Source: Thermoplasmatales archaeon (GTDB taxonomy: Archaea > Thermoplasmatota > Penumbrarchaeia > Penumbrarchaeales > Penumbrarchaeaceae). From it: DNA of 34,216 nt. Position numbers and translations under genes: made by a program. Shown here piece after piece: positions 26,252-34,216 of this stretch; position 1 is the stretch's first letter, and every line of letters begins with the position of its first letter. The stretch spans positions 1 through 34,216 of the forward strand of contig JAUVCN010000020.1 of NCBI GenBank assembly GCA_030595715.1. The letters run 5' to 3'. Under the pieces are notes generated by a model. It made no database searches. It saw nothing but the letters and a program-made list of their open reading frames with translations, and was not told where the DNA came from.

Positions 26252-28255
26252 ATGGACCCAAAACCTATCAAGGTCGCTCTTGCAGGCAATCCGAATGTCG
26301 GAAAGACAACACTGTTCAATGAGCTTACCGGTGAGAATCTTCATGTTGGTAACTGGCCGGGAGTGACCGTTGAGAAAGTTATCGGCAAGAAGGTCCATAA
26401 GGGACACAACATCGAGATCGTTGACCTGCCGGGGACATATTCCCTGACCGCATATTCAAAGGATGAGCTGATAACAAGGAACTATATCGTCGAAGAGGAA
26501 CCGGACCTGGTCCTGAATATCATAGACCCGACGAACCTTGGTAGAAATCTTTACCTCACATATCAACTGATGGAGCTTCAGTGCCAGATGCTCCTCGCAG
26601 TTAACATGTGGGACCTCACGAAGGACCCGGAGAACGCTGTGGATCTCAAGGCCCTCTCCAGGGAATTGGATATCGAGGCGATCCCTACCATCTCGACCAC
26701 CGGTAAAGGTGTTAGGGAACTTCTCGATGCAATTGTCAGAGTGGCCGGGTCCAACCCGACCTGCAAGGAACAGATCCGTTTCAACGATGATATCGAAAAA
26801 GAGATCCATAAGATCACCAGGGCATTGAACGATTGGGATCCTGGCAGAGATCATCGATGGATGGCGATCAAGGCCCTTGAAGGTGACAAGCAGGTCTGGG
26901 ACCTGCTGAAGGAAAGGGACCTCGATGATAGACTGCGCGAACTCATGGGCGAGATCGACCCAATGGGGATGGAGATCTCGATCACGGACGGAAGGTATCG
27001 GCAGATCGATAATGTTCTTGCGAAGGTAAAGAAGAAGGTGAAAAAAAAGGAAAAGATATCGGACCTGATCGACAGTGTCGTTACCAACAGACATCTGGGA
27101 ATCCCCATCTTCCTTGTCATCATCTGGTCGATCTTCGAACTCACATTCGAATTTGCCACCCCCTTTTCCAATCTGATCGACATGGGATTCGGAGAACTCT
27201 CAACCTTTGCACTGGAACAGATACAGCCTGCCTGGTTATCGTCCCTGATCGGAGAAGGCATCATCGGAGGAGTGGGGGCGGTAATAATATTCCTGCCGAA
27301 CATCTTGGTCCTTTTCTTCCTTATCTCTCTCCTTGAAAGCTCGGGTTACATGGCCAGGGCCGCCTTTGTCATGGACCGTGTGATGTCAAAGATAGGGTTG
27401 TCCGGAAAATCGTTCATCCCCATGGTGATCGGGTTCGGATGCAATGTTCCGGCAATAATGGCGACAAGGTCCATTGATGATCGGAAGGATCGTCTAGTGA
27501 CCATACTTGTCAATCCATTTGTCTCATGTGGAGCAAGGCTGCCCGTATATATCCTGTTGATAGGGATATTCTTCAAAGGATCCGGCAGCATGGTGATATT
27601 CTTCCTCTATCTATTGGGCATAGTGGTTGCCATCCTCTCTGCAAAGCTTTTCAGGGTCACCATCCTCAAAGGTGATCCGGCACCATTTATAATGGAACTA
27701 CCAAGATACAGGGGTCCCGACCTGAGACTATCCATAAGATCGACATGGGAAAAAGGTTACCAGTATCTCAAAAAGGCGGGAACCGTTATTCTTCTGGGTT
27801 CTGTCATCATGTGGTTCCTTGCAAGTTATTCATTTTCACTCGAAAATGTGGATTACGGCAGTGAAGCCAGTATGGCCGCTGCAATGGGAAAATTCATTGT
27901 ACCGATCCTGGCCCCACTTGGGTTCGATTGGAGGATCACCGTGGCACTGATCTTTGGATTCGTTGCCAAGGAGATCGTTGTCAGCGCCATGGGGGTATTG
28001 TATAATGTCGGAGCGGAAGGATCCACATTGACTGAAAGGTTATCCTCAGAAGGGTCCGGAATGACGTCGCTCAACAGTCTTTCCCTGATGGTCTTCGTTC
28101 TGCTCTATGTGCCCTGTCTGGCAACTATAGGGGTGATCAAGCAGGAGACCGGATCATGGGGTTGGGCGATATTCGCGATCATCTACACAACATCGATCGC
28201 ATATTTACTGGCACTGATAATATACCAGGGAGGGTTGCTGCTTGGGTTCGGATGA
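26252..28255 (+). CDS. feoB: ferrous iron transporter FeoB
   Basis: 667 residues, a normal archaeal length. FeoB imports Fe(II) through the cytoplasmic membrane. The N-terminal G domain has G1 'GNPNVGKTTLFNELTG' (from residue 12), 'GNWPGVTVEKVIGKK', G3 'DLPGTYSLTAYS' and G4 'NMWD'. The membrane part begins near residue 285 and includes the gate segments 'IGFGCNVPAIMATRSIDDRKDR' and 'PFVSCGARLPVYIL' with the conserved cysteines. It is followed without a gap by a membrane protein and a FeoC-like regulator. No feoA is present nearby. Regulation by iron is suggested by the upstream palindrome. Confidence 0.96.
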   Translation: MDPKPIKVALAGNPNVGKTTLFNELTGENLHVGNWPGVTVEKVIGKKVHKGHNIEIVDLPGTYSLTAYSKDELITRNYIVEEEPDLVLNIIDPTNLGRNLYLTYQLMELQCQMLLAVNMWDLTKDPENAVDLKALSRELDIEAIPTISTTGKGVRELLDAIVRVAGSNPTCKEQIRFNDDIEKEIHKITRALNDWDPGRDHRWMAIKALEGDKQVWDLLKERDLDDRLRELMGEIDPMGMEISITDGRYRQIDNVLAKVKKKVKKKEKISDLIDSVVTNRHLGIPIFLVIIWSIFELTFEFATPFSNLIDMGFGELSTFALEQIQPAWLSSLIGEGIIGGVGAVIIFLPNILVLFFLISLLESSGYMARAAFVMDRVMSKIGLSGKSFIPMVIGFGCNVPAIMATRSIDDRKDRLVTILVNPFVSCGARLPVYILLIGIFFKGSGSMVIFFLYLLGIVVAILSAKLFRVTILKGDPAPFIMELPRYRGPDLRLSIRSTWEKGYQYLKKAGTVILLGSVIMWFLASYSFSLENVDYGSEASMAAAMGKFIVPILAPLGFDWRITVALIFGFVAKEIVVSAMGVLYNVGAEGSTLTERLSSEGSGMTSLNSLSLMVFVLLYVPCLATIGVIKQETGSWGWAIFAIIYTTSIAYLLALIIYQGGLLLGFG

Positions 28256-28685
28256 ACAGAGGCGGATGACCACATTGATCCTGGGGATCGTGTTCGGATC
28301 AGCATATCTGATCTCAGGCATCCTTCAGTTCCTCTCATCGATAAGCATCATAGATGACCCGATCGGGAACCTGCCCGGGGATGTAATAGGAGGTTCTGTA
28401 ATGATCATCATCTCCATTATCTTCATTGCAGGTGTTCTATCCTACAAGAAAGAAGAAGGAAGAATGAGGTCGTTCCTTCTTGTTGGAACCTTCCTTTCTA
28501 TACTCTATGGCATCACACAGGCCCTGGTCACGATCTCGGATCAGGTCTCGGACCTGATAGGTACTACTGAGGGCGCAGGGAATATCATTATCAACCTCTC
28601 TGCCCCATCGATCATCCTCTGTATCCTGTTGATCCCCGTTGGTGCATCGATGTTATTGTTCACGATAAGAGGTGAAAAGAGATGA
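28242..28685 (+). CDS. four-TM membrane protein inside the feo operon
   Basis: 147 residues from a TTG that overlaps the feoB end by 14 bp and has GGGAGGG 7 bp upstream. An alternative ATG at 28266 would remove eight hydrophilic residues. Four hydrophobic segments (about 10-31, 45-65, 76-96, 115-138) are separated by short loops, one basic ('SYKKEEGRMR'). No metal ligands or family were recognised. Its ATGA overlap with the FeoC-like gene shows translational coupling. It probably assists FeoB or couples it to another signal. Confidence 0.7.
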   Translation: MGSDEQRRMTTLILGIVFGSAYLISGILQFLSSISIIDDPIGNLPGDVIGGSVMIIISIIFIAGVLSYKKEEGRMRSFLLVGTFLSILYGITQALVTISDQVSDLIGTTEGAGNIIINLSAPSIILCILLIPVGASMLLFTIRGEKR

Positions 28686-28954
28686 TAGCAGAGCTGCTCG
28701 AATACCTGAACAGAGGTGGAAGGACCCTTGCCCAGATAGCGAAAGAGTTGGGGATCGAAAGGGATGAACTCCATGAGAGGGTCCACATGCTCGAGAGGTC
28801 AGGATATCTGGAAGAGGTCTCGACCGCAGGGAAGGAGTGTGGGTCAAGGTGTTACAATTGTCCGATAGCGACCACCTGTCATGATGACCCCTCCAAACCA
28901 AGATACCTGCTTCTCACAAAAAAAGGCAAGGATTTCCTGGCATCCAAAAAGTAG
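28682..28954 (+). CDS. feoC: FeoC-like winged-helix protein with cysteine cluster
   Basis: 90 residues. An N-terminal winged helix ('RTLAQIAKELGIERDELHERVHMLERSGYLEE') is followed by Cys53, Cys57, Cys60 and Cys66 in a wing loop ('KECGSRCYNCPIATTC', C-x3-C-x2-C-x5-C). FeoC proteins have this small fold with an oxygen-sensitive Fe-S cluster and affect FeoB stability or transcription. The start ATG overlaps the stop of the preceding gene. Operon position and cysteine loop together make the assignment good; DNA binding is not shown. Confidence 0.83.
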   Translation: MIAELLEYLNRGGRTLAQIAKELGIERDELHERVHMLERSGYLEEVSTAGKECGSRCYNCPIATTCHDDPSKPRYLLLTKKGKDFLASKK

Positions 28955-29088: not shown

Positions 29089-29259
29089 ATGGCAGAAATA
29101 GAGTTCTATGATGTTAAATCCAAGGGTAAGTTCAAGACAGAGACATTCGACATCAGGGAAAAGAAGGGCAGGTTCTTTGCAGTGGCAAAGTCCACTACAG
29201 GCACCCACGAGTGCTGGAGAATCCTTTCCGCCAAGCAGGCAAAGGAACTCCAGGGCTGA
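29089..29259 (+). CDS. small basic protein, 56 residues, probably highly expressed
   Basis: A complete small gene: TATA box, GGAGGT ribosome site 6 bp before the ATG, 56 codons and a strong terminator 18 bp after the stop. The product begins MAEIEFYDVKSKGKF and continues with 'KKGRFFAVAKSTTGTHECWRI', which looks like a five-strand beta unit with a final helix 'SAKQAKEL'. It has 10 lysines, one cysteine and one tryptophan. Small basic beta proteins of this size in archaea include chromatin and RNA-binding proteins, but I cannot assign a family. Its solitary, well-signalled transcription unit suggests abundance. Confidence 0.75.
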   Translation: MAEIEFYDVKSKGKFKTETFDIREKKGRFFAVAKSTTGTHECWRILSAKQAKELQG

Positions 29260-29277
29260 TCTCTTTATCCTGAAAAT

Positions 29278-29310
29278 GGGCGGAGGTCCCTCCGCCCGCT
29301 CTTTTTTATT
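29278..29310 (+). terminator. strong intrinsic-like terminator
   Basis: GGGCGGAGG-TC-CCTCCGCCC is a perfect GC-rich 9-bp inverted repeat followed by a CTTTTTTATTTTAT tract. It closes the transcript of the 56-residue protein before the cytochrome genes. Confidence 0.8.
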
Positions 29311-29372: not shown

Positions 29373-31613
29373 ATGGGTGATGAGATATTATTCTCCGGAG
29401 AGAACATTCCGAGATTTACAAGGAAGAACCTTGGTCTGATCGCGGTCACCCTTGGATCCTTGTTGATCATCTCCCCCATCGCTGCAATTACACTGATGGA
29501 TGGGATCCCACCCAGAGGCTCGACAGACGTCTGCAATGGATGTCATGGTGGAGTGTATGACCTTGTGATCGAGGACCCCACATTGACCATCCCCTCAACC
29601 ATTGAGGTAGGTGAGAACGATCAAGCTACGGTATCTGTCAGGATAACATCAGATGGTACCAACAGTTACTGGGAGTTCGATATTATCATTAAACTGATCT
29701 CTCTGTACTCCAAGGTCTCGGTAAGTTCACAGCAGGTATTCAACAACCAGAGACCGTCCGGTTCTTCCCAACCTTACACATGGACAAAAGATGTCGTTTT
29801 CGACCTCAATGGAATAACACCGGGAACGGACACCCTCAGGGCGGAGGCGAGGATGGATGCGGATCATTTCAGTGCGCCTACTACCAGAAGTGTTACCGAT
29901 ACTCTCACTGTTCCGAACACTCCGCCGACGTTGACCGGAGGTGCGGTCGATCCACTATTCGGGAACACAGAGACCGATCTCACGTTCAGTGTAACATATA
30001 TGGACCCGGATGTCCAAGCACCTTCCTCTATCGATGTCCACGTTGCAGGGGGGACCTATCCATTATCCGTAACGGATGGGAATGCTGATAGTATCGGAAC
30101 GGGAGAGGGTTATTCTGCAACGATCAAACTTCCAGCGGGCGAACACTCGTTCCATTTCGAAGCATCGGATGGGATCGATCAGACATCTTTCCCCGTATCC
30201 GGAGGAGACATTGAAGGACCCAATATTATCATCAAGAACACACCTCCGGTACTGTCCGACCAGGAAGTGAGCCCCGCTTCCGGTAACTGCAATGATACAT
30301 TCAGGTTCTCGGTCACCTACACCGATGAGGAAGGGGACGTCCCCCAGGCCGTAAACCTGACCCTCAACGGAACGATCATTCCCATGACAGCTCTTACCGG
30401 AGGAATGACCCATCTCTCCGATGGTGATCACTCCAACGGGGAACGGTACGTGATCGAACTGTTCCTTGAATGCGGGGTATACCATTACTCCTTCAACACG
30501 ACAGATGGTGAACTATACCATCAGATAGGGTCCTTCTCCGGCCCATTCGTCAGCGAGGTCCCAATATTGATATCAAGGATCCTTGAACCCGGGGTAGGAG
30601 GGGCGTTCCTTTTCAATTCGACCATCCGATTCAACAGCTCATTCGACTCCAATCAGGATATCACCGATGCAACCTTCAAATGGTCATCCAATATTTCCGG
30701 CACGATAGGAGGGGAGCAGAATATTGAGGTCATCCTTCCTCCCGGCCGTCACAGGATCAGCCTCGAGGTGAATTCCATTGAATGGGGATTGGTCTCGTTC
30801 GATCATGTCAATATTACTGTTGATGAAGAAGTGGTGATGCCACCGGACCCTGTTTTCATACTGGGCCATTCCCCTGAAGGCAACCGATCGGTCGTTGAAG
30901 GTGATACCATTACCTTCTCCATCAACCTTGACATGGACCAGATGATCCACACCATGGAATGGACCATCAACGGTGTGGTTATAGATGAAGGAACGACCAG
31001 CCTGACATTTGAGCCCACATATCTGGACCAGGGATCAAAGATCATCGAGTTCGTATTGTTCGATGAGAACGGAGATGAGCTTGGCAGTGTGATGTGGAAC
31101 GTTACCGTCATCGATCGAAAAGCACCCATTCTCCTGACAGGGGACATTATCGAGGATCGTGGAGAATTCGAGAAAGGTGACATGCTGTTCATCCTGCTTC
31201 CGGTAACGGACCCCGAAGGGAGGGAGCTCACAGTAACATGGCATATAGATGGTGATGAGATCTCTGCTTCCGGGATCGAACTCTACTGGGAATTGAAGGC
31301 TGGACCCTGGTCAAAGGACGGTAACCATTCGGTCAATGCTACCATCGAGAACCCCGATGGCAATTCCATATCCATTGACTTTTTCTACCGTATGCTTGTT
31401 GAAGAAGAGATCATCATACCGCAGGATGAAGATCCGATAATCATATATCCCGAAGAGGACACAGATAAGGGCCTGTTCGCATCTATCAAGGATGACGCTG
31501 GAGCAAGGGCAATACTCGCTCTTGGAACGATAGCACTCGTATTCGGTGTGATATGGTCTGTTTTCGTTCTGATCAGACCCATCAAGAGCAGAGGTCCAAA
31601 AATGGAAGAGTGA
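29373..31613 (+). CDS. membrane-anchored single c-heme (CxxCH) protein with Ig-like repeats
   Basis: 746 residues. A membrane helix at about 19-42 is followed after 11 residues by Cys54-Asn-Gly-Cys57-His58, a c-type heme site on the outer face. About 600 residues of Ig-like/PKD-like domains follow, recognisable by repeats of 'NTPPTLTGGAVDPLFG', 'NTPPVLSDQEVSPASG' and 'VTYxDxxxDxP', then an acidic stretch. A C-terminal membrane helix (about 709-731) precedes a short basic tail. It is translated just before the second CxxCH protein (5 bp between stop and start). It is likely a surface electron carrier or scaffold. The fold and partners are inferred. Confidence 0.75.
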   Translation: MGDEILFSGENIPRFTRKNLGLIAVTLGSLLIISPIAAITLMDGIPPRGSTDVCNGCHGGVYDLVIEDPTLTIPSTIEVGENDQATVSVRITSDGTNSYWEFDIIIKLISLYSKVSVSSQQVFNNQRPSGSSQPYTWTKDVVFDLNGITPGTDTLRAEARMDADHFSAPTTRSVTDTLTVPNTPPTLTGGAVDPLFGNTETDLTFSVTYMDPDVQAPSSIDVHVAGGTYPLSVTDGNADSIGTGEGYSATIKLPAGEHSFHFEASDGIDQTSFPVSGGDIEGPNIIIKNTPPVLSDQEVSPASGNCNDTFRFSVTYTDEEGDVPQAVNLTLNGTIIPMTALTGGMTHLSDGDHSNGERYVIELFLECGVYHYSFNTTDGELYHQIGSFSGPFVSEVPILISRILEPGVGGAFLFNSTIRFNSSFDSNQDITDATFKWSSNISGTIGGEQNIEVILPPGRHRISLEVNSIEWGLVSFDHVNITVDEEVVMPPDPVFILGHSPEGNRSVVEGDTITFSINLDMDQMIHTMEWTINGVVIDEGTTSLTFEPTYLDQGSKIIEFVLFDENGDELGSVMWNVTVIDRKAPILLTGDIIEDRGEFEKGDMLFILLPVTDPEGRELTVTWHIDGDEISASGIELYWELKAGPWSKDGNHSVNATIENPDGNSISIDFFYRMLVEEEIIIPQDEDPIIIYPEEDTDKGLFASIKDDAGARAILALGTIALVFGVIWSVFVLIRPIKSRGPKMEE

Positions 31614-31618
31614 GCAAG

Positions 31619-32836
31619 ATGAAAAAGACCTTTCTTTCTTTAATGACCCTATTCCTTCTCATTGCTATTTCCGGGAATGCACTAGGAGCGTCATGCGAAT
31701 CCTGTCATTCTTCCCGCACCCCATCAGGCGGCTGGATATACCACCCCCCCGTTATCACGCTGTTACATGATCCGTTCTACCTGCCAGATACCGACGTCAC
31801 GGTTAGATTGATCATCACTCCGGCCTCGGACTATTCCATCAGCTCATTATCCGGGGAACTGGGAACCATCTACGGAAGCCTGATATCAACAGGACCCGGG
31901 ACCCCCGGGGTCGATCCTCAGGGCAACAAGTATATCGACTGGACGTTCACAGCCGGGGGTGTCGGAGAGAGCATTTTGATAGTCGATGTTGATTACACCG
32001 TATATTACAAGCATAAGACCCCTGGCACCATGGATTCCGCATCATACTTTGACAGGATCGAAACAACCGTGATCGTTGCTGATCTGGACCTGTCAATATC
32101 TCCAGGTACATTGATCTTTGAAAAGGAGAGAGAGGAAAAGGAGATCCAGCTGACCGCAACATCTGATGTGACGGATATCGAGGTCATCCTCCACGGATCA
32201 CTCGAGGGACTTGTCACCTTTTCCCAGCCCCTGGTTGAATTGAGCGATGGCGGGTCCACAACGATAACCGTTACAGTTCTCAACAGAACGAACATCATAT
32301 CATTCATGACAATCAAATGGCTTGAAGGCGATGTCCAACGTGAGATCAAGATCGAGATCGTGATCACGGACCCTGGAGATGGAGGTGGGTCCGACCTTCT
32401 GGGGGAGGTTGGAAAATACACCGGGATAGCTGCTGCTGTCCTTGTCCTGGTTGGTTTCTTTACCGGCGGAACATCCAGGTTGAAGACCATTGCCAACAAG
32501 GTCTTCGGAAGCGCAAAGAAGAGAATTGATTTCCACTGTGCGCTTTCCTTTGTCACACTTATTCTGGTTGCGATACACTTTGCAACACTGTTCTACGGAC
32601 CTTTCAGGAACCTGATATTCCAGTGGGAGGTCATTCTGGGCGAGGTTGCAATGTTGATCATGGTGATCATCTCCCTGAATGGGATATTTCAGAAGAAGTT
32701 CATCAAACTGCTGGGTTTCCAGAACTGGAGAAGGGTGCATGCATGGGGATCATATCTTATCACGGTGCTTGTATCGATCCATATGCTTCTATATGGCAGT
32801 CACTTTGTCTGGTTCAGGGAGCTCATAGGATACTGA
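31619..32836 (+). CDS. c-heme domain fused to ferric-reductase-like cytochrome b
   Basis: 405 residues from the ATG at 31619, giving a clean signal peptide (about 1-23). Cys26-x2-Cys29-His30 is a c-heme site at the mature N-terminus. A beta-rich outer domain (about 40-255) follows, then four membrane helices. His306 and His320 in one helix and His374 and His388 in another are each 14 apart. This H-x13-H pairing is typical of the two stacked b hemes in ferric reductase, NOX and MsrQ-like domains. There is no flavin or NAD(P)H domain in the chain, so electrons must come from a quinol or another protein. Confidence 0.78.
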   Translation: MKKTFLSLMTLFLLIAISGNALGASCESCHSSRTPSGGWIYHPPVITLLHDPFYLPDTDVTVRLIITPASDYSISSLSGELGTIYGSLISTGPGTPGVDPQGNKYIDWTFTAGGVGESILIVDVDYTVYYKHKTPGTMDSASYFDRIETTVIVADLDLSISPGTLIFEKEREEKEIQLTATSDVTDIEVILHGSLEGLVTFSQPLVELSDGGSTTITVTVLNRTNIISFMTIKWLEGDVQREIKIEIVITDPGDGGGSDLLGEVGKYTGIAAAVLVLVGFFTGGTSRLKTIANKVFGSAKKRIDFHCALSFVTLILVAIHFATLFYGPFRNLIFQWEVILGEVAMLIMVIISLNGIFQKKFIKLLGFQNWRRVHAWGSYLITVLVSIHMLLYGSHFVWFRELIGY

Positions 32837-32845
32837 GGTTTCAAA

Positions 32846-33247
32846 ATGGCGCATGAACTCGAGAGTGTTCTCATCCTCATCCACCCTCCCCTTGCGATAC
32901 TGGGATACCTCTTCACTTTCATTGCAGCAAAGAAGATGATCGGCCTCCTTCGGGGAAAGAAGGAGAGGATGGACCTGAAGATCTCTCTCACGATCGCCTG
33001 GTGGCTTACCTTTGCCGGGCTTGTCACCGGAATGATCTGGGCACAGATCGCATGGGGAAGATTCTGGTCATGGGACCCGAAGGAGACGGCAACACTCGTC
33101 ATCTTCGTCACATTGACGATCATCTATATCATGAACCTGAAAAAGATATCTTTGAAGGTCCAGGCCGCATACATGGCCATCAACATCCTATCCATCATCG
33201 GAACCATTTCGATAACTTTCATCGATATCGGTCTTCATTCGTTCTGA
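32846..33247 (+). CDS. minimal CcsA/CcmC-like cytochrome c heme-handling protein
   Basis: 133 residues, far shorter than CcsA (about 300) or CcmC (about 240). Four membrane helices are visible. The WWD heme-presenting motif is clear at about 70-81: 'WGRFWSWDPKET'. Two histidines are placed as the axial heme ligands: His13 in 'IHPPLAILGY' and His131 in the final 'GLHSF'. These proteins present heme to apocytochromes for attachment to CxxCH. It starts 9 bp after the cytochrome b fusion and serves the two CxxCH proteins directly upstream. CcsB/Ccs1 or CcmE/F partners are not in the window. Confidence 0.85.
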   Translation: MAHELESVLILIHPPLAILGYLFTFIAAKKMIGLLRGKKERMDLKISLTIAWWLTFAGLVTGMIWAQIAWGRFWSWDPKETATLVIFVTLTIIYIMNLKKISLKVQAAYMAINILSIIGTISITFIDIGLHSF

Positions 33248-33358: not shown

Positions 33359-34216
33359 ATGGTCGAAAAAGCCGTTTACAGGATCCTTTCAACCCTTTCC
33401 ATATTTGCTCTGATGATCATTTCTTTCCAGGTATCAGCGGAAGATCACGCCGGAACACGGGTCTCGGAGGTGATGTCAAGGGATATCACCTACAATTCCA
33501 CCCGGATCACCTGGATCACCGATATTCCTTCGGACAGCCTGGTGGAGATATCGGAGGAACTGCCATTTTCAGTTATACTTGGTGAATTCCATGGGACACT
33601 TGAAATGACACATTCTGTGAATATATGGGACCTCTCCCCTGATCAGATATATTATTTCAGGGTAACATCCGTTGATGGCGAAGGGAACTCCACAACGGAT
33701 GACAACGGAGGTTCATATTACCAGTTCTCCACGTCGACCAGTGAACCTCCGAGCATAACCAATACCGCCTCAACTGGCCCCACCACGGGGGATCGATACA
33801 ACTTCACAGCGGTTGTCGATGATGATTGGGGGGTCATCTACCTCAGCGTTGAATACAGTATAGATGAGGGGGCACCCGAGAACGTATCCATGGTGGAATG
33901 GTACCTGGGATGGTTCCATGAGATATCCATCCCTGATGATGCCTATCAACTTGAATATTCATTCTACTGCCTGGATGTGGAAGGTAACTCGATATCACAA
34001 ATGGCGGTCGAACCTGTTCTCGACGATGATAGCCCCATCATAGATAGCGTTGTAGTGGATAATGTAACAACAGGTGATCTGATCGAGATCAATGCCTCCA
34101 TCTCCGATAACATCGGAGTTGTGGAAGCATATGTGAAGACCTGGTACGGCACGGGGTATTTTTTCAGGAACTCCTCGATGACCGAGGGCCCCCCTGGCCA
34201 CTGGACCTATCATCAC
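33359..34216 (+). CDS. secreted protein with FN3/Ig-like domains, cut by window edge
   Basis: 286 codons are visible and the frame is open at the right edge. The N-terminus is a signal peptide ('LSTLSIFALMIISFQVSA'). The first domain (about 30-125) resembles fibronectin type III or the N-domain of purple acid phosphatase: 'TRITWITDIPSDSLVEI', then 'LSPDQIYYFRVTSVDGEGN'. Further Ig-like repeats follow ('EPPSITNTASTG', 'DDDSPIIDSVVVDN'). No CxxCH is seen so far. It has its own promoter signals and may or may not belong to the upstream cytochrome set. The C-terminal part, including any anchor or catalytic domain, is outside the window. Confidence 0.8.
   Translation, partial: MVEKAVYRILSTLSIFALMIISFQVSAEDHAGTRVSEVMSRDITYNSTRITWITDIPSDSLVEISEELPFSVILGEFHGTLEMTHSVNIWDLSPDQIYYFRVTSVDGEGNSTTDDNGGSYYQFSTSTSEPPSITNTASTGPTTGDRYNFTAVVDDDWGVIYLSVEYSIDEGAPENVSMVEWYLGWFHEISIPDDAYQLEYSFYCLDVEGNSISQMAVEPVLDDDSPIIDSVVVDNVTTGDLIEINASISDNIGVVEAYVKTWYGTGYFFRNSSMTEGPPGHWTYHH

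Follow-up and report, generated by a model that had tools for sequence, protein, structure and literature searches.

The window analyzed here is one whole contig (C66, JAUVCN010000020.1; 34,216 nucleotides) of an uncultured Thermoplasmatales archaeon, from an assembly of 3.07 Mb with a completeness of 95.6% (GCA_030595715.1). Its four nearest named relatives are all Candidatus Thermoplasmatota or Thermoplasmata metagenome-assembled genomes. Three intact open reading frames (ORFs) follow one another on the + strand in the order g1-g2-g3, in agreement with an earlier sequence-only reading that had placed three adjacent genes at positions 29373-33247. The g1 gene ends at 31613, and g2 most likely starts with the ATG at 31619, since a longer ORF from 31553 would overlap g1. 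The g3 gene starts 9 bp past the g2 stop codon. Because of this tight spacing, the three genes look co-transcribed. The genes and their candidate heme ligands are as follows.

29373..31613, + strand: g1, putative membrane-anchored monoheme cytochrome c with immunoglobulin (Ig)-like repeats, 746 aa (ORF, conservation, homology of the N-terminal domain to g2)
29532..29546, + strand: heme c motif CNGCH of g1, residues 54-58
31619..32836, + strand: g2, putative fusion of a cytochrome c and a di-heme cytochrome b, 405 aa (ORF, conservation, model)
31694..31708, + strand: heme c motif CESCH of g2, residues 26-30; CxxCH invariant in 11 family members
32012..32014, + strand: codon of H132 of g2, candidate distal heme c ligand; invariant in 11 family members
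32534..32578, + strand: H306-x13-H320 of g2 in helix 2 (residues 299-326), predicted to supply one ligand to each b heme; invariant, placed by the model
32738..32782, + strand: H374-x13-H388 of g2 in helix 4 (residues 370-391), predicted to supply the other ligand to each b heme; invariant, placed by the model
32846..33247, + strand: g3, putative WWD heme-handling protein reduced to four helices, 133 aa (PF01578, fold match, separate clade)
32882..32884, + strand: codon of H13 of g3, candidate P-His1; invariant in 10 family members
33053..33085, + strand: WWD motif WGRFWSWDPKE of g3, W70-E80 (alignment, tree)
33236..33238, + strand: codon of H131 of g3, candidate P-His2; invariant in 10 family members

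The g3 protein was found to match PF01578 (Cytochrom_C_asm) with E = 2.9e-18 and 66.7 bits (cut-off 29.9), and it scored about equally with the NCBIfam models for CcsB/CcsA-type and CcmC proteins. The predicted structure is a set of four helices with a predicted local distance difference test (pLDDT) score of 86. The best solved structures returned by Foldseek were CcmC (7f02 and 8ce1) and CcsBA (7s9y), with a probability of 1.00, E of about 0.015, and template modeling (TM) scores of 0.53-0.62, and the g3 profile matched CcmF, CcsA, CcsBA, and CcmC of known structure. In 10 members of the g3 family, H13, H131, and most residues of the WWD motif are invariant. Little is kept in g3 beyond H13, the WWD loop, and H131, and it is these three elements, two outer His residues and a WWD loop, that build the outer heme site in this superfamily (PMC10663686). 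A tree of WWD domains separated the g3 proteins, as a clade of their own, from CcmF, CcmC, and CcsA (support 100/99); CcsA was represented by three sequences, so that the placement of the sister group is tentative. As judged from the sequence and the model, g3 is the four-helix core of the WWD family (CcmC/CcmF/CcsA) in a separate clade, and the family match and the fold match fit the earlier description of a CcsA-like heme-handling protein.

The distribution of g3 was determined in a survey of 390 Thermoplasmatota genomes, and its range was examined within this phylum. Fifteen loci scored at least 132 bits with the g3 profile, in 12 genomes from seven families, and the next matches, at 70 bits, were CcmF-like. 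In 14 of the 15 loci, g3 lies directly 3' of a g2-type gene with a spacing of -19 to +9 bp. The remaining locus starts right at the edge of its contig, and that genome has a further contig that breaks off within a g2-type gene. None of the 12 g3 genomes yielded CcmE (PF03100), for which control genomes were positive, or ResB (PF05140), or a long WWD protein of the CcmF type, the short proteins being their sole WWD matches. A g2 gene without g3 was found in 20 genomes, 14 of which encode CcmE, and several of the others encode CcmF and CcmC. The exclusion between g3 and CcmE gave p = 1.1e-4 in a Fisher test, a value that ignores shared ancestry and is a guide only. Within a single family (f9), one genome that is 99% complete (G016) has g1-g2-g3 and no Ccm, and another (G027) lacks g3 but has CcmF, CcmC, and CcmE directly 5' of g1-g2. 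Since relatives equipped with Ccm retain g2 in the absence of g3, the b-type part of g2 does not need g3 where Ccm exists, as would be expected if g3 were a loader of c heme. Adjacency to g2 and mutual exclusion with Ccm strongly support the proposal that g3 is a dedicated heme-loading protein.

The presumed client, g2, was modeled as a signal peptide, the CESCH motif, two beta-sandwich domains (residues 45-153 and 158-249), and four transmembrane helices (residues 257-391). The earlier description of a CxxCH domain joined to a four-helix cytochrome b with two H-x13-H pairs is upheld by the invariance of CxxCH, H132, and all four b-type His residues in the 11 family members, of which the other ten are 21-45% identical to g2 of the window. 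Because these residues stay invariant down to 21% identity, the motifs are not there by chance. Loops 1-2 and 3-4, with net charges of +4 and +5, are predicted to lie inside and the c domain outside, which would make H306/H374 the inner b site and H320/H388 the outer b site. The b part had been said to match ferric reductase-type domains. The match to PF01794 (Ferric_reduct) is real, being found in 7 of the 11 family members and reaching E = 3.3e-7 in relatives, but g2 itself scores 23.5 bits, under the Pfam cut-off of 28. Four heme-spanning His residues on two helices, a trait of PF01794, are present in g2. The flavin/NADPH dehydrogenase domain of the long forms is absent, as had been noted, and the protein ends 14 residues past helix 4. 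A fold search with g2 gave generic Ig-like matches only and left the cytochrome b part unmatched, and the g2 profile had no significant match in the PDB. In two relatives (G111 and G302; L096:5223-8556 and L097:3698-6841), a g1-type cytochrome stands beside a stand-alone four-His cytochrome b of 169-172 aa. This adjacency supports a partnership of g1 and the b domain; in these genomes, the fusion seen in g2 is split.

Common to g1 and g2 is an outer beta-sandwich domain that holds a single CxxCH and, some 105 residues further on, a conserved His. The g2 profile picks up the g1 homologues of other genomes, and the N-terminal domains are hence homologous. In the alignment of 31 such domains, here called c-Ig domains, the column of H132 holds His in 24, and most of the others have Y-x-H or a similar arrangement after a longer insert. 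We predict that the c-Ig domains have an Ig-like fold and are monoheme cytochromes c with bis-His ligation, although the heme c site is not resolved in the g2 model. A CxxCH motif in an exported protein, conserved among homologues, is the usual mark of a c-type cytochrome. This conservation was found here (CxxCH is invariant in the 11 g2 and 4 g1 family members), and covalent heme on g1 and g2 is predicted. The exceptions among the homologues are two divergent relatives of g2, in G012 and G023 (L050:7556-9049 and L049:5841-8087), that have CxxHH in place of CxxCH and keep the four b-type His residues; these possibly bind heme through a single thioether or noncovalently. Genome-wide, the CxxCH pattern occurs 276 times and the reversed pattern 123 times; a pattern this short, set against so crude a control, does not yield a list of cytochromes.

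The g1 protein has a hydrophobic N-terminal segment, a C-terminal transmembrane segment, and weak PKD/Ig-like Pfam matches, and its CxxCH and H165 are invariant in the four family members. Of the surface-anchored CxxCH scaffold that the sequence-only reading had seen in g1, the single CxxCH and the anchor stand, but the word scaffold was a guess. Because its N-terminal domain is homologous to the c-heme domain of g2, a more fitting name for g1 is a second putative monoheme cytochrome c. Further membrane-anchored proteins of 208 aa with a single CxxCH of the c-Ig type were found in three genomes (G006, L093:2852-3478; G004, L094:5742-6368; G001, L095:6134-6760), and g3 may for this reason serve proteins beyond g1 and g2.

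We consider it rather probable that g1-g2-g3 is one functional unit in which electrons pass through g2 to g1 and g3 serves both as their factor for cytochrome c maturation. The g2 protein would draw electrons from the quinol pool or from a cytosolic donor and pass them from the inner b heme (H306/H374) to the outer b heme (H320/H388), and from there to its outward c heme (C26/C29/H30 and probably H132). The electrons would then go on to the c heme of g1 or to some other acceptor at the cell surface. Reduced heme would be held by g3 at the outer face, between P-His1 (H13), P-His2 (H131), and the WWD loop, and attached to the CxxCH of g2 and g1, so that g3, alone or with g2, may do the work done elsewhere by CcmABCEF or CcsBA. 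The positions of the heme ligands, the predicted topology, and the conservation fit the proposed transmembrane conduit, and g1-g2 are best read as a route by which electrons from quinol or the cytosol reach an outer c heme over two b hemes. The finding on g3 is the stronger of the two and is more interesting than the sequence-only reading had indicated.

A bolder and more tentative version of this proposal is that g3 alone, with the b hemes of g2 as its transmembrane site for heme or electrons, is a complete and self-contained maturation system, a minimal fourth class of WWD protein that replaces System I in several archaeal families. It has been proposed that CcmF reduces heme by way of a transmembrane heme b (PMC10663686). 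The speculation that the b hemes of g2 provide the electron or the heme for which CcmF and CcsBA have an internal site is drawn from one observation, the strict pairing of g2 with g3.

The nearest known systems differ from this set in several respects. Like CcsA of System II, g3 has a WWD signature of the WGxYWSWDPKE type and two outer His residues, but it is the four-helix core only, without the transmembrane His residues and without a ResB/CcsB partner. CcmC, the heme exporter subunit of System I, is the closest fold to g3 by Foldseek TM-score and also lacks the transmembrane His residues (PMC10663686), but it has six helices rather than four, the g3 genomes lack CcmE, and most CcmC proteins of Thermoplasmatota have a WGxYWRWED-type motif unlike that of g3. 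The streamlined archaeal CcmABCEF, which was shown to be sufficient in Methanosarcina and defines the streamlined archaeal set (eLife 2022, PMC9084895), would have the same job, and Ccm genes lie beside g1-g2 in G027; the difference is five or six genes versus a single gene for 133 aa. According to the same paper, Methanosarcina barkeri Fusaro lacks ccm genes. The g2 protein resembles ferric reductase domain proteins and MsrQ-YedZ in having two helices with two His residues each, stacked b hemes, and a weak Pfam match, but it has four helices, no flavin domain, and a fused outer c-heme domain. Conduits of the MtrCAB type likewise move electrons over a membrane to surface c hemes, as g1-g2 may do, but here the cytochromes would be monoheme beta-sandwich proteins at a single membrane, and there is no porin.

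Several observations weigh against the role proposed for g3. It has no transmembrane His pair, its only His residues being at positions 3, 13, and 131. The genome of the window (G000) has a second g2-g3 pair, on contig C22 (L045:3400-5144), whose g3 paralog reads WGRPFAFDPKE, with Phe in place of the motif Trp. In G005, contig C62 has a g2-type gene that is not followed by g3, and Ccm was not found in this genome, which is 69% complete. The maturation genes searched for were CcmE, ResB, and the WWD proteins; CcmB, CcdA, a heme exporter, and a thiol-reducing partner were not among them, and all absence calls come from metagenome assemblies that are 66-99% complete. AhbB, the siroheme decarboxylase that marks archaeal heme synthesis, stayed below the cut-off in all 18 genomes tested (G000 and 17 others, Ccm carriers included), most of which encode these cytochromes. 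The g2 model is also of moderate quality (pLDDT 68, helices about 60); its beta part is confident, in contrast to the first 40 residues and the helices. The missing His pair, the altered paralog, and the constant place of g3 beside g2 would suit an accessory subunit of g2 that binds heme or quinone, the CxxCH motifs being loaded by an unrecognized system or binding a metal. We regard this as unlikely, since g2 persists without g3 in relatives that have Ccm, so that b-type function does not require g3, and since the WWD motif and both P-His residues are conserved. Every genome is a draft, and these could in principle be ordinary System I or System II genomes of which the assemblies lack the other genes; this is very improbable, given that CcmE, ResB, and long WWD proteins are missing from 12 of 12 genomes in seven families, among them the nearly complete G016, and that g3 forms its own clade.

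The destination of the electrons may also be other than a solid or extracellular acceptor. In G010, a DMSO-reductase-family operon (C158, L035:1-5892) lies directly upstream of g1-g2 and encodes a molybdopterin-binding domain, a Fer4_11 subunit, an EB_dh heme-b subunit, and a NarJ-type chaperone. Because g1-g2 directly follow this operon, the pair in G010 probably serves an outward-facing oxidoreductase. It is possible, though we hold it to be doubtful, that g1-g2 are a respiratory quinol:acceptor module for such a reductase or dehydrogenase. An EB_dh-type subunit was found in none of the 12 g3 genomes and a heme-copper oxidase in none of the 14 genomes searched, the genome of the window being included in both sets, and a partner in its own genome was not found. 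Because neither protein was found, the organism of the window is probably anaerobic.

It had further been suggested, as an attractive but unproved reading, that the feo operon just upstream points to Fe(III) reduction for Fe(II) uptake. In this view, g1-g2 would reduce Fe(III) at the surface and the Fe(II) would enter through FeoB. The region upstream of g1 contains feoB, a membrane protein with a domain of unknown function (DUF), and a FeoC-like helix-turn-helix (HTH) gene, with the following features.

26252..28255, + strand: feoB (TIGR00437, E = 3.3e-197)
28682..28954, + strand: FeoC-like winged-helix protein (PF09012, E = 0.002; IclR-type HTH)
29089..29259, + strand: 56-aa ORF between the feo genes and g1, with a counterpart of similar sequence at this position in G005
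29277..29298, + strand: terminator-like hairpin between the feo side and g1, with a 9-bp stem and a T tract

The feo genes are thus present as described, but the 56-aa ORF and the hairpin intervene, which suggests that the feo genes are transcribed separately from g1. The hairpin at 29277-29298 has a strong intrinsic-terminator-like form for an archaeal genome. Downstream of g3, at 33359-34216, lies a cell-surface gene with a fibronectin type III / purple-acid-phosphatase N-terminal-like domain that is truncated by the contig end. The order DUF-feoC-g1-g2 is shared with G005, which together with the Ferric_reduct similarity of g2 speaks for iron uptake. The flanks retrieved around g1-g2 in G001, G002, G004, and G006 contained no feo homologue, and the synteny with feo was limited to one of the five relatives examined. 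The neighbors of g1-g2 are a molybdo-oxidoreductase operon in G010 and ccm genes in G027. On account of the hairpin and the patchy synteny, the view that g1-g2 serve mainly for Fe(III) uptake has been downgraded, and we now judge it quite improbable.

Kletzin et al. in 2015 found System I to be the sole maturation system in archaea and noted monoheme candidates in species with zero or one maturation protein (PMC4429474). The literature search, which did not extend to subscription papers, turned up no account of a four-helix WWD protein that stands alone. The known WWD-based pathways of cytochrome c maturation take several genes. If experiments confirm the role proposed here, g3 would be the smallest heme-attachment device known. 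A system of four core helices would show the essential part of the WWD machines and provide a simple model of heme attachment, and it would explain maturation in archaea that have CxxCH proteins but no ccm genes. The locus also marks a family of predicted beta-sandwich monoheme cytochromes and a putative transmembrane electron route in the Thermoplasmatota, for which little is known about the outlets of electrons.

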